Below, piece by piece: positions 2,556 through 25,918 of a stretch of DNA of 27,930 bases; within the stretch, counting starts at the first letter, position 1, and each line of letters starts with the position of its first letter. The notes below the pieces were generated by a model. The model searched no databases and had not been told where the DNA came from. It saw nothing but the letters and a program-made list of their open reading frames with translations. The stretch is from a virus: the IMG/VR virus record IMGVR_UViG_3300032046_000171, positions 1-27,930 of that record. One strand, written 5' to 3'. A program made the position numbers and the translations under genes.

Positions 2556-2604
2556 CAGGACTGGTGTCTCTAGGGGGCCGGTGCTCGCGGTGTGGTCCAT
2601 CCGT

Positions 2605-2635: not shown

Positions 2636-2651
2636 GATTCGAGGAGGAAAC

Positions 2652-2819: not shown

Positions 2820-2821
2820 AC

Positions 2822-3177: not shown

Positions 3178-3187
3178 GGAGGGGGCC

Positions 3188-3391: not shown

Positions 3392-3552
3392 CCAACGCCC
3401 TCTTGGCCATGGTCGTCATCCTGGGAGTCTCCCGGATGTTCGTGCTGGATGAAGAGTACCCAGAGCAGCTGTGGGGCACCCTGTACGGCGCCTCGGCGGC
3501 CGCGACGCTCTCCCTCGCCGTCTGGGTCCTCATCGAGGCGTGCGGGAAATGA
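3388..3552 (+). CDS. Small membrane protein
   Basis: A protein of 54 residues starting MTNALLAMVVILGVSR, with the ATG in a 4-nt overlap with the upstream stop. There is an N-terminal hydrophobic segment (about 3-18), a polar acidic stretch (DEEYPEQLW) and a second hydrophobic segment (about 31-51, GASAAATLSLAVWVLIEAC). This suggests a two-helix membrane hairpin. Function unknown; it is translationally coupled to both neighbours. Confidence 0.68.
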   Translation: MTNALLAMVVILGVSRMFVLDEEYPEQLWGTLYGASAAATLSLAVWVLIEACGK

Positions 3553-3725
3553 CTTGGCCGCAGCGCGCAGTCGCGGTCTCTTTCCTCTCTGCCGCGATCC
3601 TGGCCGGGTTGTCCGAATCTGGATCGTACGTGGTGCAGGCTCTCTGTGTGGCTTCGGCGGTTGTCTGCATAGTGCTTTGCGCGTTGTGTTTGTGGAGGTG
3701 TTCAGAGGATGAAAGGAGGTCCTGA
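3549..3725 (+). CDS. Small membrane protein
   Basis: A protein of 58 residues starting MTWPQRAVAVSFLSAA. The ATG overlaps the previous stop (ATGA). Two hydrophobic segments cover about residues 6-20 and 28-48 (YVVQALCVASAVVCIVLCAL), with an unusual number of cysteines (CVAS, VVCIVLCALCLWRC) and a charged C-terminus (EDERRS). It forms a pair with the preceding small membrane protein. No function can be assigned. Confidence 0.65.
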   Translation: MTWPQRAVAVSFLSAAILAGLSESGSYVVQALCVASAVVCIVLCALCLWRCSEDERRS

Positions 3726-3964
3726 TGGTGCCCGGGAACCTAGCGGCGAACGTGACTGTCAAGCCGAAGATCGAGATCAACCTCGACCTGTCGAGAATAA
3801 GCCCGAGACTGGTCCAGCTCGCGATGGAGGAAGTGCTTCCGTGCCTGCTGCGGGCGGCACCGACGAAAATCAACATCCTGTTTCCAGAGAAGAACCCCTA
3901 TGTGGAATGGACGGTGCCGCAGGAGAACAGGTTCCTTTTCAACGTGACCTTGTCCCTAGAGTAG
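3725..3964 (+). CDS. Hypothetical protein
   Basis: A protein of 79 residues starting MVPGNLAANVTVKPKI, preceded by a near-perfect GAAAGGAGGTCCTG site. Alternating hydrophobic and charged residues (KPKIEINLDLSRI, TKINILFPEKN, FLFNVTLSLE) suggest beta strands around one helix (RLVQLAMEEVLPCLL). No family is recognised. A competing frame from 3709 overlaps it completely but looks noncoding in this stretch. Confidence 0.7.
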   Translation: MVPGNLAANVTVKPKIEINLDLSRISPRLVQLAMEEVLPCLLRAAPTKINILFPEKNPYVEWTVPQENRFLFNVTLSLE

Positions 3965-3990
3965 CGCGCCCGCCACGGCCCCCCGCCGAA

Positions 3991-4740
3991 GTGTTCAAGC
4001 AGGCCGCTCCCGCCGGCACGATCCTTCTCGGCTACCGAGGCAGTGTCGCGCATGGAACCTACGCCCCGCTCTACGGCCCAGGGATCCGCGACGACGTCGA
4101 CCTCATGGGCGTCATGCTCGGCCCCCTCGGGTCCTACTTCGGCCTCCAGAACTTCGAGCAGATAGAGTTCATGTACGAGGAACCTCTCGGTCGCGTCTGG
4201 GACTGCATCACCTACGAGCTCCGGAAGTACGTTCGCCTCCTGCTTGGAGGGAACCCAAACGTCCTCTCCCTGCTTTGGCTCGATTGCGACAAGTACCTCC
4301 TGATGTCTCGTGCCGGGGAACGCCTGATTGACAACCGCCGGCTGTTCGTCGGCGCCCAACAAGTCCGCAAGGCCTTCGTCGGCTACGCCTACGGGCAACT
4401 CAAGAGGATGAGCCATTTGGCCCCCGATGCTGGCGCTGGGCGCAGGGCCCTGTTCCATCAGTTCGGGTACGACACGAAGAACGCCTCTCACCTCATCCGC
4501 CTGCTCCGTATGGGCGTCGAGTACCTCGAGACTGGGATCCTGACCGTGGAGCGTCCCGATGCGGACGAACTCCTTGCCATCAAGAAGGGGGAATGGTCGC
4601 TATCTCGAGTGGAGCAGGCCGCAGATGATCTGTTCGGCCGCATTGATGCGGCTACGGGTTCCTCCCCCCTGCCAGAGGAGCCAGACCGTATAGCCGCGGA
4701 GCGGATTCTGATGGACATCTTCGAGGAAGAGCTGCTTTGA
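3991..4740 (+). CDS. RlaP-type nucleotidyltransferase (DNA polymerase beta superfamily)
   Basis: A predicted nucleotidyltransferase of about 249 residues. From a GTG at 3991 it reads MFKQAAPAGTILLGYRGSVA, and GYRGSVAHGTYAP plus DDVDLMGV form the nucleotidyltransferase signature: the Gly-Ser motif around residues 17-18 and metal-binding aspartates at 35 and 37. The segment LLLGGNPNVLSLLWLD is typical of the phage and bacterial RlaP/YcgL-like family, members of which occur in RNA-repair contexts. The frame is open back to 3709, but that part overlaps the previous gene and looks noncoding; an ATG at 3907 is the alternative start. No good ribosome binding site is visible, so the start is uncertain. 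Substrate unknown. Confidence 0.8.
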   Translation: MFKQAAPAGTILLGYRGSVAHGTYAPLYGPGIRDDVDLMGVMLGPLGSYFGLQNFEQIEFMYEEPLGRVWDCITYELRKYVRLLLGGNPNVLSLLWLDCDKYLLMSRAGERLIDNRRLFVGAQQVRKAFVGYAYGQLKRMSHLAPDAGAGRRALFHQFGYDTKNASHLIRLLRMGVEYLETGILTVERPDADELLAIKKGEWSLSRVEQAADDLFGRIDAATGSSPLPEEPDRIAAERILMDIFEEELL

Positions 4741-4746
4741 GCCGGT

Positions 4747-4777
4747 TTGCCGGCTTGACGCTCGCCGCGAGTACATT
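4747..4777 (+). promoter_or_regulatory. Promoter-like element, copy 2 (TTGCCG-N19-TACATT)
   Basis: TTGCCG at 4747-4752 and TACATT at 4772-4777 are separated by exactly 19 nt, as in the element at 2605-2635. The flanking bases also match (TTTGCCGG and GCGAGTACATTGA against GCGCGTACATTGA). It sits just after the nucleotidyltransferase stop and 58 nt before a strong terminator. It could start a short RNA or the glycan operon transcript. Confidence 0.6.
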
Positions 4778-4783
4778 GAGATG

Positions 4784-4866
4784 ATCTACCTCCGGCCAGC
4801 CGCCTGAGCGGAAGGCGGCGTGCCTCTCTCCAGCGGGGCCCCCGAAGTCCGGGGGCCCCCTCCTTT
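4784..4866 (+). ncRNA. Candidate small RNA or transcription leader
   Basis: Between the promoter-like element and the terminator there is no ORF, but two hairpins are visible. The first is GCCGCC (4799-4804) pairing with GGCGGC (4814-4819) around a 9-nt loop. The second is the terminator stem. A transcript starting about 7 nt after TACATT would be about 80 nt long, a normal size for a phage small RNA. Alternatively it is an attenuated leader for the glycan genes. The start point is inferred. Confidence 0.4.
4835..4866 (+). terminator. Strong intrinsic terminator
   Basis: A perfect 10-bp stem (GGGGCCCCCG / CGGGGGCCCC) with an AAGTC loop is followed by CTCCTTTTG. This is a canonical Rho-independent terminator for rightward transcription. 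It ends the small-gene and nucleotidyltransferase operon and any short RNA from the element at 4747. Confidence 0.85.
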
Positions 4867-4914
4867 TGCCGGATGGAGTCTCAAGATCTGTACCTTACAT
4901 CAAGGGTGGTGGTG

Positions 4915-5346
4915 ATGTTGCGCAGAACCTTCGAGACACTGTGGCCGCGAGGCGATGCCGTAGCCGAGGCGCGTGTAGTTGATGTCGAACAACAACTTGG
5001 CGCGGCAGGATGGAGGCTGAACACGAGCAGCCGGGCGTCAGACGTCGGGTGGGTGGCGGGGTATCTTCCGCGAGGCGTCCTCCTCCCTTATTGCAGGGTG
5101 TTGGTGTTTGACGACATCTTCGCCGGGCAGGATGCTCTCCCCGGGGCGCCCCTATCTTCGTGCGCCCACGTCGTCATCTCTAGCGACGCCCTGATCTACA
5201 ACTTCAAGCAGCTCGCTAGATCCGCGCATTGCGAGGCTCGATCTGATGCGGAGGGGATTCTCATACGGGAGATAGCGGAGGACCTCGTGTCAGTTCTCCT
5301 CGCGGGGGCTCTCTCCAGGGGCAAGGGAGGAATCCGAGTTGGGTAA
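4915..5346 (+). CDS. Hypothetical protein, first gene of the glycan operon
   Basis: A protein of about 143 residues from an ATG at 4915 (MLRRTFETLWPRGDAV), preceded by AAGGGTGGTGGTG. An upstream ATG at 4873 (MESQDLYLTSRVVV...) is possible but sits against the terminator and has no ribosome binding site. The C-terminal half (VVISSDALIYNFKQLA, EDLVSVLLAGALSRG) is hydrophobic and could form an alpha/beta fold. No family is recognised. Its stop overlaps the TTG of the next glycosyltransferase by 8 nt, so a role in the same sugar pathway is likely but unproven. Confidence 0.6.
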   Translation: MLRRTFETLWPRGDAVAEARVVDVEQQLGAAGWRLNTSSRASDVGWVAGYLPRGVLLPYCRVLVFDDIFAGQDALPGAPLSSCAHVVISSDALIYNFKQLARSAHCEARSDAEGILIREIAEDLVSVLLAGALSRGKGGIRVG

Positions 5347-6463
5347 GACCATCTTCTACCCTCCGACTGTGTGCTGGTCGAGAGAGTTCCAACGCCCTCA
5401 CCAAATCATGCGCCTCATGGCGCAAAGAGGATGGACTGTCTTCTGGGGTTCTCCGCGGCTGGAAGACAAGGAGCTGACCGAGCTCGAGAGGAACATCTTC
5501 CTTGTCCACGACTGGAGGCGGTGGCTGAAGTCCGTTGACTACCAGGTTGACGTCCTGTACTGGACGCATCCCAGGCAGGCGGAGTTTCCGGACCTCTCTA
5601 GGGTCGCGTGCCATGTGTCCTATTTCGAGTCACTTGATGAGTTTCCGGAATGGGATGCCCATGAGCCCTTAGCCCTATCAATGGCTGATGTGGTGTCTGT
5701 TGTGTCCGACTACCTGATGAGGAAACAGGCCAAGCGACATCCTCGCGTCTTCATGTCTCGAAACGCGGCGGATCCTTCGGCCTTCTCGGGCGGGGGCATC
5801 CAGATTCCAAGCGAGTACAGGAAGCTCGAGCGGCCCATCGCCGGCCTTGTGGGGGTCATCGCCCAGTGGATTGACCTCGAGATCCTCGAGGCGGTCTCCA
5901 AGGTTTGCACCGTCGTCCACGTAGGCACTATCTGGGGAGACACCCCAAAAGGCGAGATCCCCCCGTCTGTCCATCTTCTGGGGTACAAAGGCTACTCTGC
6001 CCTCGCCCCATACTACAAGGGGCTGGATGTGGGCCTTGTCCCGTTCAAGCTCTCTAAGATTGGCGTGGCGTCGTGTCCGATCAAGACCTACGAGTACCTG
6101 GCCGCTGGGCTTCCTGTCGTGTCTACGCCCCTTCCGGAGTCTCTGGTGCTGGCCCCCTTTGTCGTATGTGCCGAGAGGGGTTCCTTCCCCAGAGAGGTAT
6201 TGAAGGCCGCGAAGTCAAAGAACCCCTACGCTGCGCTGAACCGTGCTGCGTTTGCCAGCCAGAACTCCTGGTCCTCTCGAGTTGATGAGATCGAACGGCA
6301 GATCAAGATGGCGTGGGGGCCTCGACGCACGCTGGCCTCGCGGGCCGGCCTTCCGGAACCGCGGGAGCCGAAGACCCCTGTGGGGCGCGCCCCGGAACCG
6401 CCCGGACAACAGCGTGTCGGCCGGCGCGATCCCGCACTGCCGCGGCACAGGAGTCGAACGTGA
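5339..6463 (+). CDS. Glycosyltransferase, GT-B fold (GT4-like)
   Basis: A GT-B glycosyltransferase of 374 residues that would transfer a sugar from a nucleotide donor. The N-terminal domain has the acceptor-side motif FQRPHQIMRLMAQRGW (about 18-33). The C-terminal donor domain includes HLLGYKGYSALAPYYKGLDV, VGLVPFK and the nucleotide-sugar signature KTYEYLAAGLPVVSTPLPE. The TTG start at 5339 is supported by AAGGGAGG 8 nt upstream. The last 40-50 residues are Pro/Arg-rich (EPREPKTPVGRAPEPPGQQ) and probably disordered. The stop overlaps the next GTG by 4 nt. Donor and acceptor are unknown. Confidence 0.85.
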   Translation: MGKTIFYPPTVCWSREFQRPHQIMRLMAQRGWTVFWGSPRLEDKELTELERNIFLVHDWRRWLKSVDYQVDVLYWTHPRQAEFPDLSRVACHVSYFESLDEFPEWDAHEPLALSMADVVSVVSDYLMRKQAKRHPRVFMSRNAADPSAFSGGGIQIPSEYRKLERPIAGLVGVIAQWIDLEILEAVSKVCTVVHVGTIWGDTPKGEIPPSVHLLGYKGYSALAPYYKGLDVGLVPFKLSKIGVASCPIKTYEYLAAGLPVVSTPLPESLVLAPFVVCAERGSFPREVLKAAKSKNPYAALNRAAFASQNSWSSRVDEIERQIKMAWGPRRTLASRAGLPEPREPKTPVGRAPEPPGQQRVGRRDPALPRHRSRT

Positions 6464-7377
6464 AGCTGCAAATCCTCTCTACGGGCAGCGGCCCCTACGG
6501 CGCCATCCACCGCGCCCACATGGCGCCCGTCATTGCCGCCCTGGGGGACAGTGAGATCTTCTGGGACCCCTCTCGTAGAGTCGGCGGGGGGTACAACCAG
6601 CCCCTAAAAGGGTTCCTCACTTTTGCTCTAGGGTGGGAGGAGGGACCGGCTGACGTCTTCATGCCACACGGCATCGCGGACAAGAACCTCCGCAATGCCT
6701 GGAACATTCAGGGGTTCCGCCAGGCTATCGTTTCCGGCCCTGCGTGGGCGAAGAAGCTCGTCTCCCAGCACAGGGCTTGGGACACGATCTTTATCGGCGG
6801 GTACCCGTTCCTCGATCCTGTGTTTGAGAACTGGCCTGTCGCGGCGGGCTCCGTCGTTTGGGCGCCAACGCACTCCAACTCGGCAGTAGACCTCGATGCG
6901 GCCTCCGCCGCGATCCAGGGGGCGATGGCTGGACTTCCTTCTTTGCTGTTGGTCGTCTCTAAGCATCCTTACGACCAGGGAGCGGGCGGAGAGTACGGCA
7001 TGTCTGCCCGGCAAATGGCCGCGGCGAAGGTAGTCATTGCGGACATCGGCTCCACGGCCTACGAGGCAATGGCCCTCGGGAAGCCGGTTGTGTTTCTGGA
7101 CTTCATGCACGCCGATGGGCAACTCAGTTGGTGGCCGGGCTCGTTTGAGGAGCAGATCTACGCCGAGAAGATTGGGCGCCACGTGGGCAGGCCGGAAGAT
7201 CTCGCCCCTGCTCTGGCCGATGCGGTCGAGCTCGGACCTACCCCCCACGAGGTTGAGTTCATCGAGCAGATCTTCCCCGCCGCATTGCGCGGCGTCTCGG
7301 GGAAGGTCGTTGCAGACAGACTACGCCAACTATGGGAAGCGAAGACGGCCTCCCGCTATTGGTGCGGTGCGGGGTGA
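6460..7377 (+). CDS. Glycosyl/glycerophosphotransferase-like protein (GT-B, TagB/TagF-like)
   Basis: A protein of 305 residues starting at GTG 6460 (VKLQILSTGSGPYGAI), with ACAGGAG upstream and a GTGA overlap with the previous gene. An open extension back to 6313 is a shadow inside the previous gene. PHGIADKNLRNAWNI and the later VVIADIGSTAYEAMALGKPVV match the HG...K and D-x-x-S-x-x-x-E pattern of CDP-glycerol glycerophosphotransferases and related GT-B enzymes. VVSKHPYDQ is also typical. The protein is shorter than TagF and may use another donor. It belongs to the coupled glycan operon. Confidence 0.78.
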   Translation: MKLQILSTGSGPYGAIHRAHMAPVIAALGDSEIFWDPSRRVGGGYNQPLKGFLTFALGWEEGPADVFMPHGIADKNLRNAWNIQGFRQAIVSGPAWAKKLVSQHRAWDTIFIGGYPFLDPVFENWPVAAGSVVWAPTHSNSAVDLDAASAAIQGAMAGLPSLLLVVSKHPYDQGAGGEYGMSARQMAAAKVVIADIGSTAYEAMALGKPVVFLDFMHADGQLSWWPGSFEEQIYAEKIGRHVGRPEDLAPALADAVELGPTPHEVEFIEQIFPAALRGVSGKVVADRLRQLWEAKTASRYWCGAG

Positions 7378-8159
7378 TGATGAAAACTGATCTGGTCATT
7401 GCCGCGGCGCGCGATGCCCGCTCTCTGGCCCTGTGCGCGAGGGGCGTCGCCTGGTCTAACCTCTCGCAGGTCGACCGAGTGGTCGTTCTCGTCAACAACG
7501 CAGACGGCACAAACGCCACGATGGACGTGCGACGAAGCGCCGTCGTGCTGAGTCTCGAGCACGGCTGGGATGTTATCGAGTACGCGGGTGATGGTGCCTG
7601 CGGGGACGCCTTGGCGTGGTATGTGCGGGGGGCGCCGGCGCAGGGCTTCGTGAAGATCGACTCGGATATGTTCCCCATTCACAGAGGATGGGTTGGCGGC
7701 CTCTTACGCGAACTGCGTAACGCAGAACTGGTAAGCGGCATGACCAATGCCAACTGGCATTGCTCTGGCGAGTTCATGCGCGCGCTGGACCGCGATCCAT
7801 CCCCTCTCCTGTACAAGGATGCTGCGCGCAACATGGAGATCTGGCTTGAAACGCTCTCTCAATGGCAGAAGGTGACAGAAAAGGGTACTTTCCGCGATTT
7901 CTATGTCGAGACCCCGGAGTGGATCTCCGGCAATGCTTTCGCGTTCAGTCGAGGCTGGTTCGACTCGATCCCGCCTGAAGCCTGGGCGGGGAAGATGGAC
8001 GAGGCGGTCATCAACCTGCCGGCAGGCCGACGCGCGCCCGTTCCCGTGATCGGGGAGTCCCTTCTCTTGCACTGGGGGTATGGGCCCGCGACGAGGCAAC
8101 TGGAACCGATGTGGAATGACGCTTCAGAAAGACTGCTCAAACTGTGGGGTGAAACGTGA
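7377..8159 (+). CDS. Glycosyltransferase with DxD motif (GT-A, GT2-like)
   Basis: A protein of 260 residues starting MMKTDLVIAAARDARS. The ATG at 7377 overlaps the previous stop (TGATGATG), and a second ATG follows directly. The N-terminal strand-helix pattern with VVVLVNNAD, then DALAWY and VKIDSDMFPIHRGW (metal-binding DSD, about residues 93-95), is the layout of an inverting GT-A transferase. Later NAFAFSRGWF and HWGYGPATR would form the acceptor side. Exact family and sugar are not clear. It overlaps the following GTG by 4 nt. Confidence 0.75.
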   Translation: MMKTDLVIAAARDARSLALCARGVAWSNLSQVDRVVVLVNNADGTNATMDVRRSAVVLSLEHGWDVIEYAGDGACGDALAWYVRGAPAQGFVKIDSDMFPIHRGWVGGLLRELRNAELVSGMTNANWHCSGEFMRALDRDPSPLLYKDAARNMEIWLETLSQWQKVTEKGTFRDFYVETPEWISGNAFAFSRGWFDSIPPEAWAGKMDEAVINLPAGRRAPVPVIGESLLLHWGYGPATRQLEPMWNDASERLLKLWGET

Positions 8160-9247
8160 GACAACTGACCGCGGTGATTATCCCCGCGAGGGGAGACGGC
8201 GAAAGGATCCGCGCACTGAGGGCAGACGGGAACAAACTCCTGCTCCCGTGGGGCAAAGGATATGTAGTCGACGCCTTGCTGGATACGTTCAGCGCAACGC
8301 CGGACGAGATCGTGATTGTCACTTTGCCGCAGCACCTTGATGAGCTGGCAAAGGTCGTTGGGGACAGAGCGTCTATTGTTTCTCATCCTCGTGAAGAACG
8401 TGACTCGCCCGTTCTCTCCTTGGCTGTCGGGCTCGAGCGCCTGTCTGCCCTCCCGGGCAACGCGAGCGTCGCGGTCCTCTTCTCAGACACGATCCTTGCG
8501 AGAGCGGTTCCGCTGACATCACAACAGCCGGAGGCCGACGTCGCCTTCGTCAAGGACGGCTTTCGTTATCAGGTGTGGCGCGGCATGGACTATCTAGCAG
8601 GGGCGCAACGGTGGTCCTACCCGCTCGGTGAGCATAAGCCAGCCTTGGCGGCAATCGGAATCTACCGGGCACCTCTTACTCACTGGTCGAAGATCGTATT
8701 GCCAGATAAGTGTACTGGTCTAGGCGACATGGACTGGTGGGCGTTCTACCCCAGGGAGGTTCCAGTCGACTCGTGGCATGACGCGGGAACGGTCGAGTCT
8801 TACTCGGAGTCTTGCCGCCGCAGCGGGCATGTGGAGTGGGAAACGGGTCGTCAGATGCAGCGGCGCTTTCGGCGTTGGGCGGCAGATCGCTATCTGCCGT
8901 GGGCAACAACCTTGAGGGAGGTCGCTTCCTACGATGCGGTGAGGGCCACAAAGATCGGGGGGGTCGAACTGTTCCCGCTCGGGGGTTCCGGCATGATGGA
9001 GGCAATGGAAGGGAACAAGAGAACGTGGACCCCCATCCGCAGCGCAAGGCTCCGCTTCAGCGAGATCGGCATGGAGAACGAAGACTCTCTGGATGTCTCC
9101 ATCCGTTCGGTTATGCTTGACCCTGGCGGCAAGCGGATCGGGGAGGTCTCCGATGTTCGTTTTGTACCCGTCCGTCGAGGGGAGACTCTGTACCGGGCGC
9201 GAAGCGGGGAGAAGGTCTATGCGGTACAGCGCAAGGAGGCTGAGTGA
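8156..9247 (+). CDS. Sugar nucleotidyltransferase-like protein with C-terminal extension
   Basis: A protein of 363 residues, GTG start at 8156. The first part has the NTP-transferase signature AVIIPARGDGERIRAL and NKLLLPWGK, the region VAVLFSDT, and DSWHDAGTVESYSE, which resembles the W-D-x-G-T motif of NDP-sugar pyrophosphorylases. It would activate a sugar phosphate to an NDP-sugar. Residues from about 220 to the end form a further, unrecognised domain (GGVELFPLGGSGMMEA, TWTPIRSARLRFSEIG). The gene is linked by GTGA overlaps to both neighbours, which fits supply of a donor to the transferases upstream. Confidence 0.75.
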   Translation: MRQLTAVIIPARGDGERIRALRADGNKLLLPWGKGYVVDALLDTFSATPDEIVIVTLPQHLDELAKVVGDRASIVSHPREERDSPVLSLAVGLERLSALPGNASVAVLFSDTILARAVPLTSQQPEADVAFVKDGFRYQVWRGMDYLAGAQRWSYPLGEHKPALAAIGIYRAPLTHWSKIVLPDKCTGLGDMDWWAFYPREVPVDSWHDAGTVESYSESCRRSGHVEWETGRQMQRRFRRWAADRYLPWATTLREVASYDAVRATKIGGVELFPLGGSGMMEAMEGNKRTWTPIRSARLRFSEIGMENEDSLDVSIRSVMLDPGGKRIGEVSDVRFVPVRRGETLYRARSGEKVYAVQRKEAE

Positions 9248-10347
9248 GAGCGTTGCTCATAGCGGGAACCAGGCCGGAGATCGTCAAGCTCTACCCCGTG
9301 TACCTGGAGTTGATCGCCCGGGGGCACTCCTGCGAACTTGGTTGGTCTGGGCAACAGGCGGACCTGGGGCCGCAGACACTGAACGTCTTCGGGTGGAGGC
9401 CGCGGTTCGCGAACAACCGCCCGGACAGAACAGCCGCCAACCGCCTGGTTGATGTCACCTCGGGCGTCCTCGAGTGGGCCACCGCCGCCATCAGGGGGTA
9501 CGGGCCGGACGTCGTAATCGTTCAGGGGGACACTACGACGACGCTCGCCGGGGCTCTCGCCGCGTTCTACTCGAAAGCACAGTGTGCCCATGTCGAAGCT
9601 GGTTTACGCACACATAACCGATGGTCACCCTATCCGGAAGAGATGAACCGGGCCCTCGTCGACCGGCTCTGCGACATCCTGATTCCTCCTACGGAGGAGG
9701 CGAGATCAAGGCTCGAGCAGGAGGGGCTCCTCCCGTCAGCGCCTGCTGGGAACACGGAGCTCGACGCGGTGCGGATCATCCTCCAGCGCCGGGCCCTCCG
9801 CGAGGTCGGGGAAGGGCCCGTGCTTATCACGGTGCATCGCCGGGAGAACGCCGGGCGCGGAGCGGAGGAGGTTGCCAGGGCGGTTGACCTCCTAGCGGAA
9901 GCATCCCCCGAGAGGCGGTTTCTGGCGGTGCGCCACCCCAATGCGGGCCATAATGCGGGCCATTGTGGCCCGTTCGACGCCTTGAATCGGGACAACCTGA
10001 AGGTCGTCCCCCCCATGCCGTTTGACGCCTTCGTGGCCGTCCTTTATCACTCCCCGCTGGTCATCACCGACTCGGGGGGGATCCAGGAGTCGGCGGCGTA
10101 CCTTCACGTCCCGCTTATCGTCTGCCGAGAGTCCACGGAGCGTCCAGAGGGGGTCCAGGCGGGTTGCGCCTGGTTGGTGCCGCCAGAGTCCGGGGCTCTG
10201 GCCAGAGCCGCCCTGAGCCTGCTTCGAGAAGACTCCCCAGAACGCGCCGCCATGAAGGCGGCTTCTTGCCCCTATGGGGACGGATACGCCGCAGTTGGGG
10301 TAGTTAGCATCTTAGAAAGAGAGGTTCGTGTCCCCGTAGCGCGCTAA
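9244..10347 (+). CDS. wecB: UDP-N-acetylglucosamine 2-epimerase (WecB family)
   Basis: A protein of 367 residues that would interconvert UDP-GlcNAc and UDP-ManNAc in the cytoplasm. Family motifs appear in order: GTRPEIVKLYP (8-18), VQGDTTTTLA (93-102), HVEAGLRT (116-123), PEEMNR (131-136), GNTELDAV (about 169-176), HRREN (208-212) and TDSGGIQESA followed by RESTERPEG. All catalytic regions are present and the length is normal. The GTG at 9244 overlaps the previous stop. A tandem 12-bp duplication (9940-9951 and 9952-9963) adds a second Asn-Ala-Gly-His near the substrate loop. It is the last gene of the glycan operon, directly before a terminator. Confidence 0.92.
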   Translation: MRALLIAGTRPEIVKLYPVYLELIARGHSCELGWSGQQADLGPQTLNVFGWRPRFANNRPDRTAANRLVDVTSGVLEWATAAIRGYGPDVVIVQGDTTTTLAGALAAFYSKAQCAHVEAGLRTHNRWSPYPEEMNRALVDRLCDILIPPTEEARSRLEQEGLLPSAPAGNTELDAVRIILQRRALREVGEGPVLITVHRRENAGRGAEEVARAVDLLAEASPERRFLAVRHPNAGHNAGHCGPFDALNRDNLKVVPPMPFDAFVAVLYHSPLVITDSGGIQESAAYLHVPLIVCRESTERPEGVQAGCAWLVPPESGALARAALSLLREDSPERAAMKAASCPYGDGYAAVGVVSILEREVRVPVAR

Positions 10348-13485: not shown

Positions 13486-13734
13486 ATGCTGAATGTCTTT
13501 ACTTGGATCATCGAAAAGGCCACGTCCATACTCAAGACCGGCGCCAGCGCCGTCCTTCCCGCCACGCAGATTGAGGCTGTCGGGGGCAGGCGCGTATGGC
13601 TCTGTCTGGTGGGCATGGTGTTCGTCGTCGCCGGCCACTACATCGGCATCCCGGAGTCCCTGCAGTACGCCTGTTTGGGATTGGCGGGGGCATTCGTTGT
13701 TGGGCAGTCGGCGGTCGACTACAAGCGGGAATGA
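13486..13734 (+). CDS. Small membrane protein, possible holin-like
   Basis: A protein of 82 residues starting MLNVFTWIIEKATSIL, with AGAGGAGGAAG before the ATG. There is an amphipathic N-terminus and two hydrophobic segments, about 36-51 (VWLCLVGMVFVVAGHY) and 59-73 (LQYACLGLAGAFVVG), then a charged tail (SAVDYKRE). This shape is like class II holins, but no lysis enzyme can be identified next to it with confidence, so the holin label is tentative. It overlaps the next gene by ATGA. Confidence 0.65.
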   Translation: MLNVFTWIIEKATSILKTGASAVLPATQIEAVGGRRVWLCLVGMVFVVAGHYIGIPESLQYACLGLAGAFVVGQSAVDYKRE

Positions 13735-14150
13735 AGAAGCGGCGGATCACCCACCTTGTCGTTGGGCTGGAGACCTATCCCGTCGTCTTCGCGCCCGAGC
13801 ATCTCGCCGCCATCGAGCGGCACGACAAAACGAGTGGGGCGCTAAAGACCTCGGCTGGATACGACGGGCTCGTCTCGTTCAAGTTCGGTGTCGTCCTGCT
13901 GAATCCCAACATCAGGGTGACAGAGAACAAACCTCTCCTGGTGTTGGGGCACGAGGCGCTCCACCTCGTCGAGTACGCCGCGGCGACCCCCCTTGGAGAG
14001 GAGCCGGTGGACAGGATCTCGCGCGCCTTCCTCACCATGCTTGTCGAATCCGGCATCATAAATCCAGACGAGATCGAGATTGTGGGGATCTCTCCGGAGG
14101 AAGCCGGTCTTCCATCTCCGGAGGAATGTGTGGAGATCCTAGGGGTATGA
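13731..14150 (+). CDS. HExxH zincin-like protein
   Basis: A protein of 139 residues starting MKKRRITHLVVGLETY, coupled to the preceding gene by a 4-nt overlap. The key feature is LLVLGHEALHLVEY (about residues 71-84), an HExxH metallopeptidase motif on a predicted helix, preceded by the strand-like VVLLNPNIRV. A third zinc ligand is not obvious; a glutamate in the EEP/DRIS segment or later could serve. This suggests a small metalloprotease of unknown target. ImmA/IrrE-like or lysis-related roles are possible but not shown. Confidence 0.68.
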   Translation: MKKRRITHLVVGLETYPVVFAPEHLAAIERHDKTSGALKTSAGYDGLVSFKFGVVLLNPNIRVTENKPLLVLGHEALHLVEYAAATPLGEEPVDRISRAFLTMLVESGIINPDEIEIVGISPEEAGLPSPEECVEILGV

Positions 14151-14222
14151 ACAATGAGCGGGTCATGGGCATCTCGGGCGTTGGCGCGGGCAATCGACCT
14201 TAGCGACCACACTCGAGTAGAG

Positions 14223-14249
14223 GCAGGTTCGAGTCCTGCCGCCCGCCCA
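14223..14249 (+). other. tRNA 3'-end-like segment (T-arm plus acceptor 3' strand)
   Basis: GCAGG-TTCGAGT-CCTGC forms a perfect tRNA T-arm (5-bp stem, 7-nt loop). It is followed by CGCCCGC and CCA-like bases, ending immediately before the first base of the tmRNA. No complete cloverleaf could be drawn upstream. The best 5' partner strands (GCGGGTC at 14158, CGGGCG at 14175) leave no proper D-arm or anticodon arm. It may be a tRNA remnant, an integration (attP) core derived from a host tRNA gene, or part of an unusual tRNA. Confidence 0.55.
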
Positions 14250-14576
14250 GGGGGCGCTTGGCTTCGACAGGCGCAGTGAAACGAGGAGTGCGCGCAACCA
14301 CACCAACACGTGTGAACACTCTCAAGTCTCTCTTCGCGCGAGCGAAGGGCGCGGTCCTCGGCCTCGTAGGCTGGCTGACAAACCGCGGCGAACCCGCCTA
14401 CGCTCCGGTCGCCTGCTTCGCCTAGCGGTCGGTAGCTCTCAGAGGTGAACGCTGGCCAGGCACAAGGCTCGTCGGTTGTGGCGCCTGGCCGCGCTGATTC
14501 CAGAGCCGACTACTGCGCGTAGCAACTCGTCGCGAATCTCGTCTGGACGCGGATTCGACCTCCGCCGCCTCCACCA
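14250..14576 (+). ncRNA. ssrA: tmRNA (transfer-messenger RNA)
   Basis: A complete tmRNA of 327 nt. The 5' end GGGGGCG (14250-14256) pairs with CGCCTCC (14566-14572), one G-T wobble, followed by discriminator A and encoded CCA (14574-14576). The tmRNA hallmark GGCTTCGACAGG follows the acceptor strand, and the T-arm GCGGA-TTCGACC-TCCGC is perfect. Helix P2 is visible (ACGAG 14281-14285 with CTCGT 14538-14542; GAGT and GCGCGC with ACTC and GCGCGT). An 8-bp helix GGCCAGGC/GCCTGGCC (14454-14461, 14483-14490) with GGCTC/GAGCC forms a downstream pseudoknot. CGCGGT/ACCGCG (14350, 14382) suits PK1. The tag probably ends YAPVACFA with stop TAG at 14423; an alternative frame from GCG 14388 reads ANPPTLRSPASPSGR. 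It rescues stalled ribosomes with SmpB. Confidence 0.93.
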
Positions 14577-14909: not shown

Positions 14910-16298
14910 ATGCCGGTCCTCAAACTCCATAGCTCATTCTTCGGCGAGCACCCCAAGCAGGACAAGCTGCTGACCTGCGAGGAGCGCTGGCAGGTCGTCG
15001 CCGCGGGACGGCGCTTCGGGAAGGGCAACTTCGCTCTACGCAAAGCCGCCAAGATCGGGGCCCTGCATCCTGGATGCCGCATCTGGATCGTTTCGCCCAC
15101 GTACTCCTTCACCGATCCCATGTGGGATAAGGCTGTGGCGGCGTTTAGCCAGATGAGGGTCGGCGCATCCTCCTTCGTCCAAAAGACGCGCATCAAAGAC
15201 CGAGACATCGTCTTGTTCAACGGCGCGGAGATCCAGTTCAAGACCTCGGTCGAACCTGACAGCTTACGCGGGGCCGGCGACTTGATGGAGTTCTTGATCG
15301 TCGACGAAGCCGCCTACTGCGAGGAAGAGGCCTGGAAAGCGGTCCGCCCGGCGCTGATGGACCACAAGGCGCCAGCCGTGTTCATCTCGACCCCCAACCG
15401 GCTCAACCCCAAAAACTGGTTCTACGATCTGTGGCTGAAGGGGCAGACGCACTTGAGCGTTGTCTGCCCGGGTTGCGGGGGCGGGGGGCAGTGCTCCCTG
15501 TGCTGCGACAGCGGGTCGGTCCTCATCGAGAACCCCGCGAAGACCGAGGGGTACGCCTCGTGGCAGTTCTCCAGCTACGACAATCCGTACATCGACCCGG
15601 CGGAGATCGACGACCTCATTGCCACATCCAACTGGAACAGCCAGGACGTCCGCCGAGAGATCTTCGCCGAGTTTCTTGGAGGCACCGCGGTCATCTTCCC
15701 CTATGAGGCGGTCCGAGACTGCATCAAAGGGCAATTCGAGGCGTACACGCCAGGCTGCATGTACGTGATCGGAGTTGACCTGGGCCGCGTGGAATCGCAT
15801 ACCGTGGTTACGGTATTGCGTTTTCCGGCGTCCGATCAAGAGGTCCCCCACGTAGTGCGCATCGAGCGCTTTCAGGGATCGTGGGGCGTGCAGAAACAGC
15901 GCATCGCGGACATCGCCAAGCACTACGCGAGCCCTCCCGCTTTCATCGACGCCACAGGCCTTGGCGACCCCCTGCGCCACGAACTAGAGTTGGAACCGTA
16001 CAACGTCCGCAAGTTGAACCCAGTCAAGTTCAGCGGGACCAGCAAGCCGCAGATCGTAGACGCTCTAGTTGGAGCGGTGAACGGAAGCTCCATCTCCTTC
16101 CCGGAGCACGCACAACTCGAGAAGGAGCTCGTCGGCCTGGAGGCCAAGACGACTCCCGGAGGAACGACTACCTACCAGCGCTCAAAGGGCGTCCCTGACG
16201 ACTGCGTCATGTCTCTTTGTCTTGCCTACTGGGGGTTCCTGACTTTGGGAGGAGGGACGAAAAGAGGAGGTCTCTGGATCCGGGGGATTGGGAGATGA
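14910..16298 (+). CDS. terL: Terminase large subunit with a zinc-ribbon insertion
   Basis: A DNA-packaging motor and nuclease of 462 residues. The ATPase domain has Walker A GRRFGKG (33-39), Walker B LMEFLIVDEAAY (125-136) and the coupling motif FISTPN (158-163). The C-terminal RNase H-like nuclease has IGVDLGRVESHT (Asp290), FIDATGLGD (Asp347) and VPDDCVMSLCLAYWG (Asp431). Between the domains lies CPGCGGGGQCSLCC (Cys 186, 189, 195, 198/199), a small zinc-ribbon-like insert that most terminases lack. The ATG follows the previous stop without a gap. No small terminase subunit is recognised nearby; the helical protein at 11922 is only a candidate by position. Confidence 0.93.
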   Translation: MPVLKLHSSFFGEHPKQDKLLTCEERWQVVAAGRRFGKGNFALRKAAKIGALHPGCRIWIVSPTYSFTDPMWDKAVAAFSQMRVGASSFVQKTRIKDRDIVLFNGAEIQFKTSVEPDSLRGAGDLMEFLIVDEAAYCEEEAWKAVRPALMDHKAPAVFISTPNRLNPKNWFYDLWLKGQTHLSVVCPGCGGGGQCSLCCDSGSVLIENPAKTEGYASWQFSSYDNPYIDPAEIDDLIATSNWNSQDVRREIFAEFLGGTAVIFPYEAVRDCIKGQFEAYTPGCMYVIGVDLGRVESHTVVTVLRFPASDQEVPHVVRIERFQGSWGVQKQRIADIAKHYASPPAFIDATGLGDPLRHELELEPYNVRKLNPVKFSGTSKPQIVDALVGAVNGSSISFPEHAQLEKELVGLEAKTTPGGTTTYQRSKGVPDDCVMSLCLAYWGFLTLGGGTKRGGLWIRGIGR

Positions 16299-16755: not shown

Positions 16756-18267
16756 ATGGCTGAAGGCTGGAAGAGTCAGATTTTCGTCGGCTCCGGGGAG
16801 GCCTCTCCTCCGAGCGACCCTCTGTCCCTGTCGCTCCGCATGACGATGCTGGGGCAGAAGGCGGCTCGACCGAACCGCAAAGGGGAAAACGAGAAACCCC
16901 TGCCGGACGCCAACCGCCAAGAGACCGAGAAGTCAGGACCTGAAGTTCTGCCGTGGCCCCACGGAATGGACCCGGCCGAGATTGCCGCCTTGTACGACGA
17001 GGACTCTACGCATCATGCTTGCGTGAACCTCAAGGCCGCAGCCCTTCTGAGCAACGGCTACAAGTTTGTCAACCCCAAAGGCAAGTCCAAGGTCCCGCCG
17101 GCCATGATCGAGGAGTTCGAGGCCATGTTCCCGGATGGCGTTGAGGACTTTGCCACCGCGGTTGAGCGGGACTTCTGGAGCCTGGGTAACGCCTGGATTG
17201 AGGTTGTCCGCAACAACGCCGGCCGGGTAACGGGGGGGGCTGCCAGCGGGCGCGTGGCTGAGCTTCGCCACGTCCCGGCGAGGACAATGTGGGCAGTGAA
17301 CCCCAAGTTCAAGGAAACGCGGGGCTCCTACGTCCAAGTTGTGGGCGGAGAAGAGGTCTACTTCCGTGCCTTTGGAGACGTAGAGCCGGCTTCTGCCGAG
17401 GGGCAGGATGCGGTCAACGAACTCGTCCACCTGAAGAACTACACCCCCTACGATTCGTGGTACGGGATCCCGCCCATCTGGGCCGCCCTGTGCGCCGTGC
17501 TGGGGAACAGGCTTTTCGAGCAGCACGCGATGGACTATCTCGAGGACCGCGGCCTAAGCCGCTACCTCCTCGTGATGGACGGCGCCCACATGATGCTCGA
17601 CGAGAAGGACGAGGCCGTCCTCAACAGTTATATCAACGGCCTCATCTCGAATCGCAACACCAAGCTCATCCTGTTGGGGACTCCCAGTGGGACGAGCTCC
17701 ACCGTTCATGCACTTCGGGGAGAGGTGAACTTTGACACCCTCGACGTTGTGCGCACGGCGAACCGAGACAGCATCGCCAGGGTGCATAACGTCCCTCCGC
17801 GGCTCCTGGGGATCATCGCTTCCGGAGCGCTTGGGGGGGCCTCAGAGGGCGACGTTCAGTTCGAGTATTTCAAGCGCATGTGTGTCCGGCCCCGGCAGAA
17901 GGTTTGGAGCAGACTCTTCCAGCAGATATTCTTCGGGCAGGACGCCAAGCGGGCGAAGTGGACTGTCGAGTTCAACGAGCTGGACATCGCAGATTTCCTG
18001 CGGTTGATGCAGGCGAACGTGGGGTACATCCGATCGGGCGTCCTGACAGTCAACCAGGTCCTGTCCTCCCTCGGGCATGATGGGATCGGCCCGGCCGGTG
18101 ATCGGCACATCATCATCGCCGGCGGCACCCCCACCGACCTCGAGCAGATCGGCGCGCTTCCCGCGGCGGCCCCGGGTCCTGGGACGAGCGACCCGGGAGG
18201 GAATGACAGCCGCGGCCAAGGTGACGGAAGCGGCGGCGACCAAACCGCCGGTCAGGGTGACCAGTAA
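16756..18267 (+). CDS. Portal protein (PBSX/HK97-like)
   Basis: A protein of 503 residues forming the dodecameric portal through which DNA enters the head. DPAEIAALYDEDSTHHACVN leads into the portal core. NYTPYDSWYGIPPIWAALCA followed by QHAMDYLEDRGLSRYLLVM is the characteristic Y-G-I-P-P...F/Y-x-x-x-G motif of PBSX-type portals. VRTANRDSIARVHNVPPRLLGII is the conserved wing/stem segment. The last 40 residues are a Gly/Asp/Gln-rich disordered tail (GQGDGSGGDQTAGQGDQ). The stop overlaps the ATG of the protease gene (TAATG). Confidence 0.88.
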   Translation: MAEGWKSQIFVGSGEASPPSDPLSLSLRMTMLGQKAARPNRKGENEKPLPDANRQETEKSGPEVLPWPHGMDPAEIAALYDEDSTHHACVNLKAAALLSNGYKFVNPKGKSKVPPAMIEEFEAMFPDGVEDFATAVERDFWSLGNAWIEVVRNNAGRVTGGAASGRVAELRHVPARTMWAVNPKFKETRGSYVQVVGGEEVYFRAFGDVEPASAEGQDAVNELVHLKNYTPYDSWYGIPPIWAALCAVLGNRLFEQHAMDYLEDRGLSRYLLVMDGAHMMLDEKDEAVLNSYINGLISNRNTKLILLGTPSGTSSTVHALRGEVNFDTLDVVRTANRDSIARVHNVPPRLLGIIASGALGGASEGDVQFEYFKRMCVRPRQKVWSRLFQQIFFGQDAKRAKWTVEFNELDIADFLRLMQANVGYIRSGVLTVNQVLSSLGHDGIGPAGDRHIIIAGGTPTDLEQIGALPAAAPGPGTSDPGGNDSRGQGDGSGGDQTAGQGDQ

Positions 18268-19544: not shown

Positions 19545-20558
19545 ATGAGTCTTGCTAGAGACCAGATCATGCAGAAGTTCCTGAGCTCCGTCATCGGAGC
19601 AAACGGGCTTCTGAACGCGACGCAAGCCAAGACGTTCACCGACGAACTCGTCGAGGAGACCGAACTTCTGAAGCTCTGTGATCGCCGGATGACCAATGAA
19701 AAGGCGGGTGACTTCTTCAAGATCAACCTTGGGTCGCCCGTGACCGTCGCCGCGTCAGAGGGAACGGAGTACCTCGACGAGACCGGCGAGCCGACGACCT
19801 CGAAGTACAGCTACTCTGTGAAGAAGGCGCGCACTCAGTTCGAGTTCACGTCGGAAGACGACGTGTGGACGATTGAGGGGCCGGCCTTCAAGGAGCACGT
19901 CGTCCGCCTGTGGGAGCAGCGCATGGCGCTTGACATGGAGAACCTCGCCATAAGCGGTGATGAGTCCCTCTACGCGACTCCGTCGTCCGCTTGGGAGAAG
20001 TTGATCGACATCAACGATGGCTGGCTCCATGCCCTCACCACGGCCAACGGTGTCCATATCCTCGACGCGGCCAATGTCACGATTGGCGGAGCGTCCGCGG
20101 CCTACCCGAGCCACTCGCTGTTCGCGGCTGCCTATGGGCTCGTCCCGACCAAGTACCTGAAGTTCGCGCGGCAGAACTACCGCTGGATCACCAGCCCGCA
20201 CGTCATTCAGGACTACCTGCACTGGCTCGCTTCCCGGCAGACCTCGCTTGGCGATGCGATCCTCCAGGGGCGGGCAGAGTTGACCCCGGAGCGGATTCCG
20301 TTCCTCGACGTGTCAGCGTTCCCCGAGGATCTCGGAGAAAACGACGACCAGTGCGTCGTCGTGCTCGCGGATCCGAAGGCGTTCGTGTGGATGGTTCACC
20401 GCGAGATGAAGCTCCTGAACCGCTACGTTCAGGAGAAGGACTCGTACCGCTACACCGGGTACACGTACTCCGACTTCATCGTCACGAACTACTCCTCGAT
20501 TGTCAAGGTCGTGAACGTCGAGCGCAACACCGACTTTGCGGTTGAAGAGGAAAGCTAG
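19545..20558 (+). CDS. Major capsid protein (HK97 fold)
   Basis: A protein of 337 residues starting MSLARDQIMQKFLSSV, with CAAGAGGGGGTAG upstream. Its position directly after the protease-scaffold gene and its size match a major head protein. TFTDELVEETELLKLCDRRM, then VTVAASEGTEYLDE and KKARTQFEFTSEDDV, correspond to the N-arm/E-loop and strand-helix transitions of HK97-fold capsids. LADPKAFVWMVHREMKLLNR and TGYTYSDFIVTNYSSIVKV are typical of the C-terminal A-domain. No long N-terminal delta domain is visible, which fits use of a separate scaffold. Confidence 0.85.
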   Translation: MSLARDQIMQKFLSSVIGANGLLNATQAKTFTDELVEETELLKLCDRRMTNEKAGDFFKINLGSPVTVAASEGTEYLDETGEPTTSKYSYSVKKARTQFEFTSEDDVWTIEGPAFKEHVVRLWEQRMALDMENLAISGDESLYATPSSAWEKLIDINDGWLHALTTANGVHILDAANVTIGGASAAYPSHSLFAAAYGLVPTKYLKFARQNYRWITSPHVIQDYLHWLASRQTSLGDAILQGRAELTPERIPFLDVSAFPEDLGENDDQCVVVLADPKAFVWMVHREMKLLNRYVQEKDSYRYTGYTYSDFIVTNYSSIVKVVNVERNTDFAVEEES

Positions 20559-23233: not shown

Positions 23234-23407
23234 ATGCACACGGTGAAAAACCCCAAGAGGGAGTTGCGGGTCATCAACCTGCCTACGAGGACCCTCTACC
23301 TGGCAGCCAGGGAGATAGTGGACCTCACGGACGAAGAGTACACCTGCCGGGACGTGCGCGCCCTGTTCAGGGTTGGTCTCCTGAGAGATGTCGGAGGTGA
23401 CCGCTAG
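23234..23407 (+). CDS. Small conserved-looking tail-region protein
   Basis: A protein of 57 residues starting MHTVKNPKRELRVINL, with a clean AAGGAGACAAGCA site. It reads on through LPTRTLYLAAREIVDLTDEE to a GGDR end. Its stop shares a base with the GTG of the sheath gene (TAGTG). Small proteins in this place between tail terminator and sheath are common in contractile-tailed phages, function unknown. Confidence 0.7.
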   Translation: MHTVKNPKRELRVINLPTRTLYLAAREIVDLTDEEYTCRDVRALFRVGLLRDVGGDR

Positions 23408-24936
23408 TGCCGGGGAACGAGAGATACCGCGCTCCAGGCGTTTATACCAGCGAAGTCCCGGTCGGCGGAGAGCCCCTTCAGCCCGCTGGGAGTTCTGCTG
23501 CTGCGATGATCGGAACAGCCGGGTGGGGGCCGATGGGGGCGTACACCTTCATCTCGAGTTGGACTAACTTCGTGAGGAAGTTCGGGAATGACGGCGGCTA
23601 CCTCGCCCAAGGCGCCCGCAACTTCTTCCGCATGGGCGGGACGAGACTGTACGTCGTCCGCACCTGCCACTATGAGGACCTGACTAGTCCGATCAGCGCC
23701 ACTGCGGTCAAGTCCGAGATTGTGGTCATGTCCAACGAGGCCACGCCGGCAGAGTTGTTCACTGTGACGGCGCTCTACCCGGGCACGTTCGGAGACAACC
23801 TTGTCGCGCGCATGGAAGACGTCGACGCCGAGGGCGAGACGTTCTCCCTGGAGATCTACCAGGAGGTCGGCGACAAGCTGGCCCTCCTGGAGAGTTATCG
23901 CAGCCTGTCACTAGATGACGAATCGGCGCAGTTTGCCGAGGACGTCATCAACGCTCGGTCGAAGTACATCGAAATCGAGGTAGCTGGCGACAGCGTCGAG
24001 CACCTCGCCGATGACACCGAGTGGGACCTAACGGGCGGAGACGATGGGTTAGCCGAGATCAACGACGAGGATTACGTGGGCGACGACGCCGGGTCGACCG
24101 GGCTGTACGCTCTCGACACCGTTCCCGAGCTGTTGACGATCCTCCATCCGGGCATCACCTCCAATTCGGTCATTGTGGACGGGCAACAGTATGTCCGCGA
24201 CTCCGTCGACCGGCGCGGGTGCGACATCTACATCTTCGACCTGCCCGTGGGGTACGACCCGCAGGAGGCGCTAGACTTCGTCGGCAACGAACTGATGTCG
24301 ACCAGCTACGAGGCCTGCTACTTCCCGTGGGGCGTCGAGGGCAGCGCGACTGTGCCGATGGCCCCGTTCATGGCTGGCGTCTACGCCAAGAACGACTTTG
24401 AGTACGGCGTGTGGTGCGCCCCGGCGGGCACGAAATACAGCCTGCCGCTGACGGACCTCATGTACGACCTGTCGTTTGGCGACATCCAGCTCCTGAACCC
24501 GTATGGGATCAACTGCATCCGCCGGCTGTTCATGGAGGGATTCGTGCCCTGGGGGGTGCGAACCCTGGAAGTCAACTCGCACTTCCGCTACCTGAACGTG
24601 CGGCGGTTCGTGAACGTCATCAAGAAGACTCTCCAGTCCGGAGCCAACCAGTTCGTGTTCGAGCTGAACGGGCCGGCCCTGTGGGTCCGCATTGAGGACA
24701 CGGCGCGAATGTTGATGATGTTCTTCCACTCGCTGGGAGCTTTTGCCGGCGCGACACCGGCCAAGAGTTTCTACTGCAAGTGCGACGAGGAGACGAACCC
24801 GCCCGAGCTCATCGACCAGGGGATTGTGACCTGCGTCATCGGGATTTGTCCGGCAAAGCCGGCCGAGTTCGTCGAGTTCGAGATTCGTCTCTACAACCAC
24901 GGAGTGCTTCCAATCGCAACCACCCCTGGAGAGTAG
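23407..24936 (+). CDS. Contractile tail sheath protein
   Basis: A protein of 509 residues, GTG start at 23407. The N-terminus YRAPGVYTSEVPVGGEPL and AAMIGTAGWGP is the sheath signature (P-G-V-Y-x-x-E, then G-x-A-x-x-G-P). FRMGGTRLYVVR and LYPGTFGDNLVA are further family motifs. The C-terminal part VRTLEVNSHFRYLNVRRFVN, VIKKTLQSGANQFVFELNG and EIRLYNHGVLP form the core sheath fold that interlocks neighbouring subunits. This gene establishes the contractile tail. The middle (about residues 100-250) is an acidic, variable outer domain. Confidence 0.93.
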   Translation: MPGNERYRAPGVYTSEVPVGGEPLQPAGSSAAAMIGTAGWGPMGAYTFISSWTNFVRKFGNDGGYLAQGARNFFRMGGTRLYVVRTCHYEDLTSPISATAVKSEIVVMSNEATPAELFTVTALYPGTFGDNLVARMEDVDAEGETFSLEIYQEVGDKLALLESYRSLSLDDESAQFAEDVINARSKYIEIEVAGDSVEHLADDTEWDLTGGDDGLAEINDEDYVGDDAGSTGLYALDTVPELLTILHPGITSNSVIVDGQQYVRDSVDRRGCDIYIFDLPVGYDPQEALDFVGNELMSTSYEACYFPWGVEGSATVPMAPFMAGVYAKNDFEYGVWCAPAGTKYSLPLTDLMYDLSFGDIQLLNPYGINCIRRLFMEGFVPWGVRTLEVNSHFRYLNVRRFVNVIKKTLQSGANQFVFELNGPALWVRIEDTARMLMMFFHSLGAFAGATPAKSFYCKCDEETNPPELIDQGIVTCVIGICPAKPAEFVEFEIRLYNHGVLPIATTPGE

Positions 24937-24946: not shown

Positions 24947-25918
24947 ATGAGTGACGACACGAACGAGAGAAGGGCTCGAAAGGGCCTCTTCACCCTCTCT
25001 GTGGTGGGGAAGCCTGGTGAGCATAAGCTCCAGTCCGTCTCCGGTTTCCGGCAAGCGATCGACCTGATCGAGGGCGCGTCCGAGTCAACGCGCATCGACA
25101 AGTTCGACCTGCCGTCTCAACTGAACATGGAGGCGCTCACGCTGCGCGAAGCCCCGTTTGCGGGCTGTGGCGACCAACCGGAAGGCAACTTCTTCTTCTC
25201 GCTGTACCTCAACGGGACGGAGGTCGCTCACGTTCGTAGTGTGTCCGGCCTTGGAGTGAACTGGGCGGTCAGCGAGAACCGCGAGTCGACCGTCCTCAAC
25301 GTCCAGAAGCTCTTCACCAAGCGCACCACGCCTGAGATCACCATCAAGCAGGTCATTGAGCTATCAGAGGGGGACGCCCTATTCGATGAGATTGCCAAGA
25401 TGGGCACGTACCAGGGCCCGGGAAGGGCGTTCTCTGTCGTGGGTGGGGCAACGTGCGCGTACCGCGGAGACTGGAAGATCTCTCTGAAGAAGAGAGACGG
25501 GAGCGAGGTCGCGAGCTGGACCATCTACCAGGCGTTCCCGAACTCCTACACTCCGTTTGACGATCTGGACGCAACGTCTGATGACGTGGCGCTTCGGACC
25601 CTAACCCTCAGATCCTCACCCGCCTTCGGGACGATCAACATCGAAGAGCGGGTTTCTTCCTGGCCCGGCGGCGGGCAGATTGTCAGCCCGGACTTCCTTC
25701 TGTGGGTGTCCTCGGCGTTCAACCTGCCGACCCGGCAAACCCTCGTGCTCAACCTGTACCACCCCGACGCTCTGCCCGGAGCGGGCGAGCCCGTGAAGCG
25801 GTGGAAGCTGTTCAACTGCTGGCCGTCCACAGTGACGTACCAGGATCTCGATGCCGGCTCTCCCGCGCTCTGCACGCGCGAAGTCGGGATCGCCTACGAC
25901 GGCTACATTCCCGTGTAG
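24947..25918 (+). CDS. Tail tube protein (T4 gp19-like) with repeated domain
   Basis: A protein of 323 residues starting MSDDTNERRARKGLFT, directly after the sheath gene as expected for the tube. EVAHVRSVSGLGVNWAVSEN and RTTPEITIKQVIELSEGDAL are tube motifs. SWTIYQAFPNSYTPFDDLDA followed by SDDVALRTLTLRSSP is the conserved C-terminal block of gp19-like proteins. A second version of that block ends the protein (RWKLFNCWPSTVTYQDLDA, then TREVGIAYDGYIPV). The protein is twice the usual 140-170 residues, so it appears to be a fusion or internal duplication. A cytosine-rich gap with a hairpin follows. Confidence 0.82.
   Translation: MSDDTNERRARKGLFTLSVVGKPGEHKLQSVSGFRQAIDLIEGASESTRIDKFDLPSQLNMEALTLREAPFAGCGDQPEGNFFFSLYLNGTEVAHVRSVSGLGVNWAVSENRESTVLNVQKLFTKRTTPEITIKQVIELSEGDALFDEIAKMGTYQGPGRAFSVVGGATCAYRGDWKISLKKRDGSEVASWTIYQAFPNSYTPFDDLDATSDDVALRTLTLRSSPAFGTINIEERVSSWPGGGQIVSPDFLLWVSSAFNLPTRQTLVLNLYHPDALPGAGEPVKRWKLFNCWPSTVTYQDLDAGSPALCTREVGIAYDGYIPV

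Follow-up and report, generated by a model that had tools for sequence, protein, structure and literature searches.

The biology of tmRNA is well established: the RNA is charged with alanine and bound by SmpB, enters stalled ribosomes, replaces the broken template and releases the ribosome at its own stop codon (PMC8012679). The A at position -4 of the resume context is nearly invariant, and mutating it abolishes activity in E. coli (PMC2481249). Phage-encoded tmRNAs are uncommon but known: one survey (PMC9004378) counted them in 402 out of 18,146 phage genomes. The preliminary description of the locus treated here was correct in calling them rare. Phage ssrA may serve to speed up the recycling of ribosomes, to degrade aberrant or host proteins, or to interfere with the host system. 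Known phage ssrA genes include those of the mycobacteriophages Bxz1, Wildcat and SlimJimmy and of Bacillus phage G.

We analyzed a 27,930-nt virus record, of which the full stretch is called the window and supplies the coordinates unless another contig is named.

The phage and its tmRNA gene

The window is a 27.9-kb fragment of an uncultured tailed phage with a contractile tail (a myovirus), and contains genes for TerL (14910-16298), portal (16756-18267), capsid (19545-20558), sheath (23407-24936) and tail tube (24947-25918). A block of host-like genes at 3709-10347 encodes an RlaP-like nucleotidyltransferase, a glycosyltransferase, a MobA-like NTP transferase and a UDP-GlcNAc 2-epimerase, perhaps for the modification of surface sugars.

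A tmRNA (ssrA) gene of the one-piece form, 327 nt long, is located at 14250-14576 on the plus strand, as are all of its elements described below. With cmscan, the Rfam model RF00023 matched over its full length (positions 1-374 of 374) with 66.6 bits (E 3.9e-24; gathering cut-off 47 bits), and a search of the phage's own genome gave the same match again. The preliminary description had placed a tmRNA with acceptor, encoded CCA, sequence motif and helix P2 at exactly these coordinates, and had proposed to check it with the Rfam tmRNA models in Infernal and with ARAGORN. The former confirmed the gene, and the latter made no tmRNA call in the window.

The elements of the tRNA-like domain (TLD) are evident from both the sequence and the cmscan alignment. 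The 5' strand of the acceptor stem, GGGGGCG (14250-14256), forms seven base pairs with CGCCTCC (14566-14572), which include the alanine identity pair G3-U70 (G3 at 14252, U70 at 14570). The 3' segment (14549-14576) consists of a regular T-arm (GCGGA/TTCGACC/TCCGC, 14549-14565), the acceptor 3' strand, the discriminator A and the encoded CCA (14574-14576). GGCTTCGACAGG is located at 14260-14271, and GGCTTCGAC is visible, as are both strands of helix P2, which has a few mispairs and, according to the cmscan alignment and the MFE fold, extends approximately over 14269-14296 and 14516-14545. Together with the predicted pseudoknots, which with the long P2 helix replace the D and anticodon arms of a tRNA, and an in-frame stop codon in a hairpin loop (see below), the covariance-model score, the alanine-type TLD and P2 identify 14250-14576 as a real, phage-encoded one-piece tmRNA.

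The close relative by TerL (about 52% identity) is the phage contig L002 (IMGVR_UViG_3300033141_001438), with portal and capsid identities of 45% and 50%, respectively, and it was the one close relative with a tmRNA that was found. A disrupted TLD in relatives had been named as an observation that would speak against the gene; the TLD of the L002 tmRNA (2506-2850, 81.5 bits) is intact. In the window, the tmRNA follows the gene at 13596-14150 and precedes the TerS-like and TerL genes. L002 has its tmRNA between homologues of these genes, although extra genes, including an HNH endonuclease gene, separate it from them. The same flanking homologues around both tmRNAs point to inheritance from a common ancestor. 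No tmRNA was found in the other related phages (L038-L043, L245-L251), which says little because these are only fragments of genomes. Nucleotide relatives of the window were absent from 50,697 phage records, a TerL profile search revealed nothing closer than the known relatives, and a search of bacterial genomes with the capsid revealed no prophage or host.

Several further observations were made around the tmRNA genes. Directly adjoining the 5' end of the window tmRNA is a tRNA-like element (14186-14249). Its acceptor strands read GCGGGCA/CGCCCGC and its T-arm, GCAGG-TTCGAGT-CCTGC, is perfect, but only 30 nt separate the two and an anticodon arm is not recognisable; neither ARAGORN nor the Rfam tRNA model called it. 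A similar element adjoins the L002 tmRNA (2414-2505; acceptor-like GCATCCT/AGGGTGC, T-arm-like ACTGG-TCCGATT-CCAGA), and thus a tRNA-like leader may be common to both phages, perhaps for 5' processing. Just downstream of the L002 tmRNA, 52 nt (2999-3050) are 79% identical to its 3' part (E 1e-8) and represent a partial duplication. In the further relative L039, an array of ten tRNA genes (Glu, Ser, Trp, Val, Arg, Ile, Arg, Ile, His, Ala; 20-3863) encloses a ribonucleotide-reductase-like gene and lies just upstream of a TerS-like gene, which is the place of the tmRNA in the window.

The end of the tag

The tag frame closes with AYAPVACFA and the stop codon TAG (14423-14425), which together occupy 14396-14425. 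AYAPVACFA is identical in 6 of 9 residues to SYAPVAVAA, the tag end of the phage tmRNA in contig L103 (IMGVR_UViG_3300022723_000207), in which the whole tag reads ADDHVSYAPVAVAA. The match has a BLOSUM score of 28, compared with 1.1 +/- 5.2 for the null, and none as good occurred at about 6,400 stops of dinucleotide-shuffled copies. The tag frame of L002 ends IGTPVTVCA and also has its best match in the YAPVAVAA family (P 0.018 per stop). Moreover, the Pro codon of -PV- marks the start of the stop-codon hairpin in all three tmRNAs (window, L002 and L103). The L103-type match, the shuffles and the position of this hairpin settle the tag frame as that which stops at UAG 14423-14425 and ends -YAPVACFA. 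Two frames had been offered in the preliminary description; the YAPVAVAA-type tags support this one, and the other, reading ANPPTLRSPASPSGR from GCG 14388, has no support and is rejected, the supported tag end being in a different frame.

The claim that the tag end is non-canonical also held. Instead of the C-terminal L/V-A-A of a ClpXP-type ssrA degron, the window has -CFA and L002 has -VCA, and both have another residue in place of the second-last alanine that the usual -LAA and -VAA ends share. Two pattern scans of IMG/VR yielded 68 distinct tmRNA sequences, including those of the window and L002. By an automatic rule, an open frame with a -LAA/-VAA-like end was present in all of them except the window, L002 and L096 (-LTA); in the roughly 66 other phage tmRNAs, the tag end is almost always -LAA or -VAA. 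ARAGORN and a simple -LAA rule both overlook divergent phage tmRNAs.

When bacterial genomes were scanned for YAPVAVAA followed by a stop codon, 117 contigs were found, nearly all from Hyphomicrobiales or other alphaproteobacteria. The tag was ANDNYAPVAVAA in 113 of these, and in all four contigs that were checked the match lies inside alphaproteobacterial two-piece tmRNA genes. Among viral contigs scanned for the YAPVA pattern, L103 was the only tmRNA, and the hits in L351-L356 were chance matches inside genes. A tag search in phages gave only a chance match. A Bxz1 tag sequence did not match and was left out of the evidence. We infer from these comparisons that the window tail derives from the YAPVAVAA tag type of L103 and the alphaproteobacteria, with changes of the third-last and second-last residues. 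As a pointer to the host, this type of tag end is only a hint.

Predicted structures in the tag region

A simple pseudoknot scan, which recovered the known pk1 elements of the controls L082, L112 and L103, revealed no canonical pk1 in the window tmRNA. Two adjacent strong pseudoknots are predicted. The first (UCGGCC.CGUAGGC.GGCUGA...GCCUACG, 14358-14402) overlaps the tag frame and has a counterpart of similar topology and position in L002. The second arises from the hairpin CCGGUCGC...GCGGUCGG (14405-14449), which has the stop codon UAG in its loop region and is extended to a predicted pseudoknot by UUCGCCU/AGGUGAA. Two adjacent pseudoknots are also predicted in L002, with the same topology and distance to the stop codon, and in both phages this codon is placed at the end of the 5' strand of the second stem. 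Two pseudoknots had been listed in the preliminary description, and the summed energy of the predicted pair goes beyond that of dinucleotide shuffles (P 0.007 for the window; 0 of 150 shuffles for L002). With synonymous-codon shuffles, the effect was weaker (P 0.018 for the window and 0.038 for a slightly shortened L002 stretch). Upstream, the hairpin CUUCGC-GCGA-GCGAAG (14332-14347) corresponds to H5 of the covariance model in the cmscan alignment and lacks an in-frame stop codon. Downstream, a pk4-like 3' hairpin or pseudoknot is predicted from GGCCAGGC/GCCUGGCC and a downstream strand, making a further pseudoknot near 14457-14513 likely.

Should the two adjacent pseudoknots exist, the first codon of a short tag would lie within one of them, whereas a long tag would run through both.

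Where the tag begins

To characterize resume codons, a strict rule was applied to phage tmRNA resume contexts, and the 42 distinct contexts that passed, 98% of them with A at -4 and 95% with T at -5, were used to train a weight matrix. Real sites had a median score of 17.9. The best sites in the window and L002 scored -2.7 and 0.8, respectively, and a recognisable resume codon was not found in either (P 0.58 and 0.44 versus shuffles). GTG 14312 was first favoured by its matrix score, until the shuffles showed this score to be at chance level. Of the U(-5) A(-4) context, which is typical but not universal, GTG 14312 and GCC 14396 have only the A(-4), which the in-frame codons GGC 14387 and GAA 14390 lack.

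The first possibility is a long tag, for which the candidate frame (14312-14425) runs from a putative start at or near GTG 14312 over 37 codons to the stop codon UAG 14423 and would yield the tail VNTLKSLFARAKGAVLGLVGWLTNRGEPAYAPVACFA. In L002, the frame is likewise open for 36 codons from the corresponding GAC and stops at the same structural place, and each of the two starts is preceded by A at -4 and followed by a codon with A as its middle base. In both phages, the codon usage of the long frame resembles that of genes, including the stretch ahead of the YAPV codons (window +19.4, compared with 18.9 +/- 10 for genes and -22 +/- 11 for false frames; shuffle P <0.0005 for the window and about 0.007 for L002), and the coding signal goes up at codon 20, which is GTG 14312. 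However, in a calibration on other phage tmRNAs about 3 of about 30 non-tag stretches also reached P<0.01, so the codon usage of the 36- to 37-codon frame is moderate evidence of coding. The 36-residue frames of the two phages, aligned without gaps, show a weak, mostly C-terminal similarity (P 0.014), and conservation is absent from the first 24 residues. Coding would pass through the H5-like hairpin and both predicted pseudoknots, which would need to be unwound, and the resume context is at chance level. Published tags of 8 to 35 residues (PMC8012679) are in favour of a long tag, as is the finding that pk1 can be replaced, for example by a hairpin, with tagging in E. coli being kept (PMC4236655). 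On balance, a long tag is a tentative reading, and would be a special case of the explanation that we prefer (see Discussion). The preliminary description had noted neither the want of a recognisable resume codon nor a possible tag length of up to 37 codons.

Alternatively, the tag may be an ordinary short one of 9 to 14 residues ending YAPVACFA, in which case an insertion would separate P2 from a degenerate pk1. Examples would be AYAPVACFA, starting at GCC 14396 with its A at -4, or GEPAYAPVACFA, with 12 residues like ANDNYAPVAVAA. These lengths agree with those of the alphaproteobacterial tag (12 residues) and the L103 tag (14 residues), and the position of the stop hairpin relative to the codons matches that in L103. 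On the other hand, all short starts scored poorly (GCC -12.1, GGC -17.0, GAA -20.1), two of them lack the A at -4, and no convincing pk1 was found upstream of a short tag. In addition, the AYA codons fall within the strongest of the predicted pseudoknots, which covers the GCC UAC G start. We regard a short tag as about as tentative a reading as the long one.

That no resume codon was recognised, that no convincing pk1 was found upstream of a short tag and that the AYA codons are predicted to be buried count against our preferred explanation; these marks would also be expected of a decaying gene. The absence of an SmpB gene from the fragment and the single close relative found with a tmRNA also count against it. 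In such a defective tmRNA, the TLD would be kept while the tag region lacks a resume signal or has suffered a one-base deletion, and the RNA would be a relic or a decoy for SmpB. This retains some probability because the two half-frames of the preliminary description, GCGAAC... and ...TACGCTCCGGTC, are shifted by one base against the ANDNYAPV of ANDNYAPVAVAA. A TLD-only phage RNA (DS6A) inhibits the host tmRNA (PMC4131195, PMC11915505), and the partial tmRNA copy beside the L002 gene would also fit. Nevertheless, an intact TLD, P2, the pseudoknots, an open frame and tag ends that resemble each other are kept in two phages whose TerL proteins are about 52% identical. The covariance-model score is well over the cut-off, and the codon usage farther upstream, being gene-like, speaks against simple decay. 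Decay thus appears rather improbable.

Discussion

The gene, its alanine-type TLD, P2, the predicted pseudoknots and the frame to UAG 14423-14425 with the tail -YAPVACFA constitute the observed part of our explanation; beyond this, we infer tmRNA activity, an SmpB partner and the fate of tagged peptides. Probably, the phage tmRNA would rescue ribosomes and add the tail -YAPVACFA, and the products would then be degraded less or by another protease. During infection, the tmRNA would be charged with alanine and would bind SmpB, presumably that of the host, as no SmpB gene is present on the 27.9-kb fragment. It would then enter ribosomes stalled on broken mRNAs, the template would be swapped for the tmRNA's own frame, and release at UAG would leave the unfinished protein with a tail ending -YAPVACFA.

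ClpX reads the terminal Ala-Ala of the tag, and the changed tail would therefore be expected to weaken ClpX recognition. As in the preliminary description, we hypothesize that the altered tail avoids ClpXP or redirects the products; the likeliest outcome would be that ribosomes are still rescued, and that degradation of the tagged products is less efficient than with -LAA/-VAA ends or falls to another protease. A more far-reaching version, namely a phage lineage in which a tag of about 36 to 37 residues is written through the H5-like hairpin and two pseudoknots, and its end -CFA/-VCA uncouples rescue from ClpXP disposal, is unlikely. If the rescue parts are indeed kept and the degron end is altered, the possible roles of phage ssrA would become separable by experiment, and a tag frame overlapping pseudoknots would bear on how ribosomes move along tmRNA.

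The standard one-piece bacterial tmRNA (RF00023) resembles that of the window in its TLD with G3-U70 and CCA, P2, pseudoknots and full-length covariance-model match. Compared with standard and phage tmRNAs, the window tmRNA ends -CFA instead of -LAA/-VAA, and neither a canonical resume context nor an ordinary pk1 was found in it. The SlimJimmy tmRNA belongs to the same family and has a tag ending ...DYAVAA; it is unannotated in the phage record (L272, OQ995428.1, 130-541) and matched with 99.7 bits, with a tag of about AAFVDADYAVAA. A high-GC phage tmRNA (L079, 1541-1880, minus strand) has a compact body of 323 nt and an unusually long tag of 26 residues, ANDMDRSASDLTFPTEWVREFDLVAA.

The L103 tmRNA is likewise a one-piece phage tmRNA with a stop hairpin starting at the Pro codon, but it has a regular pk1, a canonical resume context (score 9.1) and the end -VAA, and the window proteins had no match in the examined L103 stretch. 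The alphaproteobacterial two-piece tmRNA (RF01849) with the tag ANDNYAPVAVAA shares the tag end YAPVA(V)(A)A with the window (tag DNA TATGCTCCGGTTGC compared with TACGCTCCGGTCGC). However, RF01849 genes are permuted, whereas the window gene has its acceptor halves at the two ends of 327 nt and shows no circular permutation, and cmscan gave no RF01849 match in the window. Despite the similar tail, the window tmRNA is therefore outside the alphaproteobacterial two-piece family. The tmRNA of the related phage L002 is placed alike relative to the flanking homologues and has a 36-codon frame, two predicted pseudoknots at the same places and the tag end PVTVCA, although the two RNAs are only about 37% identical in a gap-free alignment in frame. 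In comparison with known phage tmRNAs, the tail, the missing recognisable resume site and possibly the tag length are novel.
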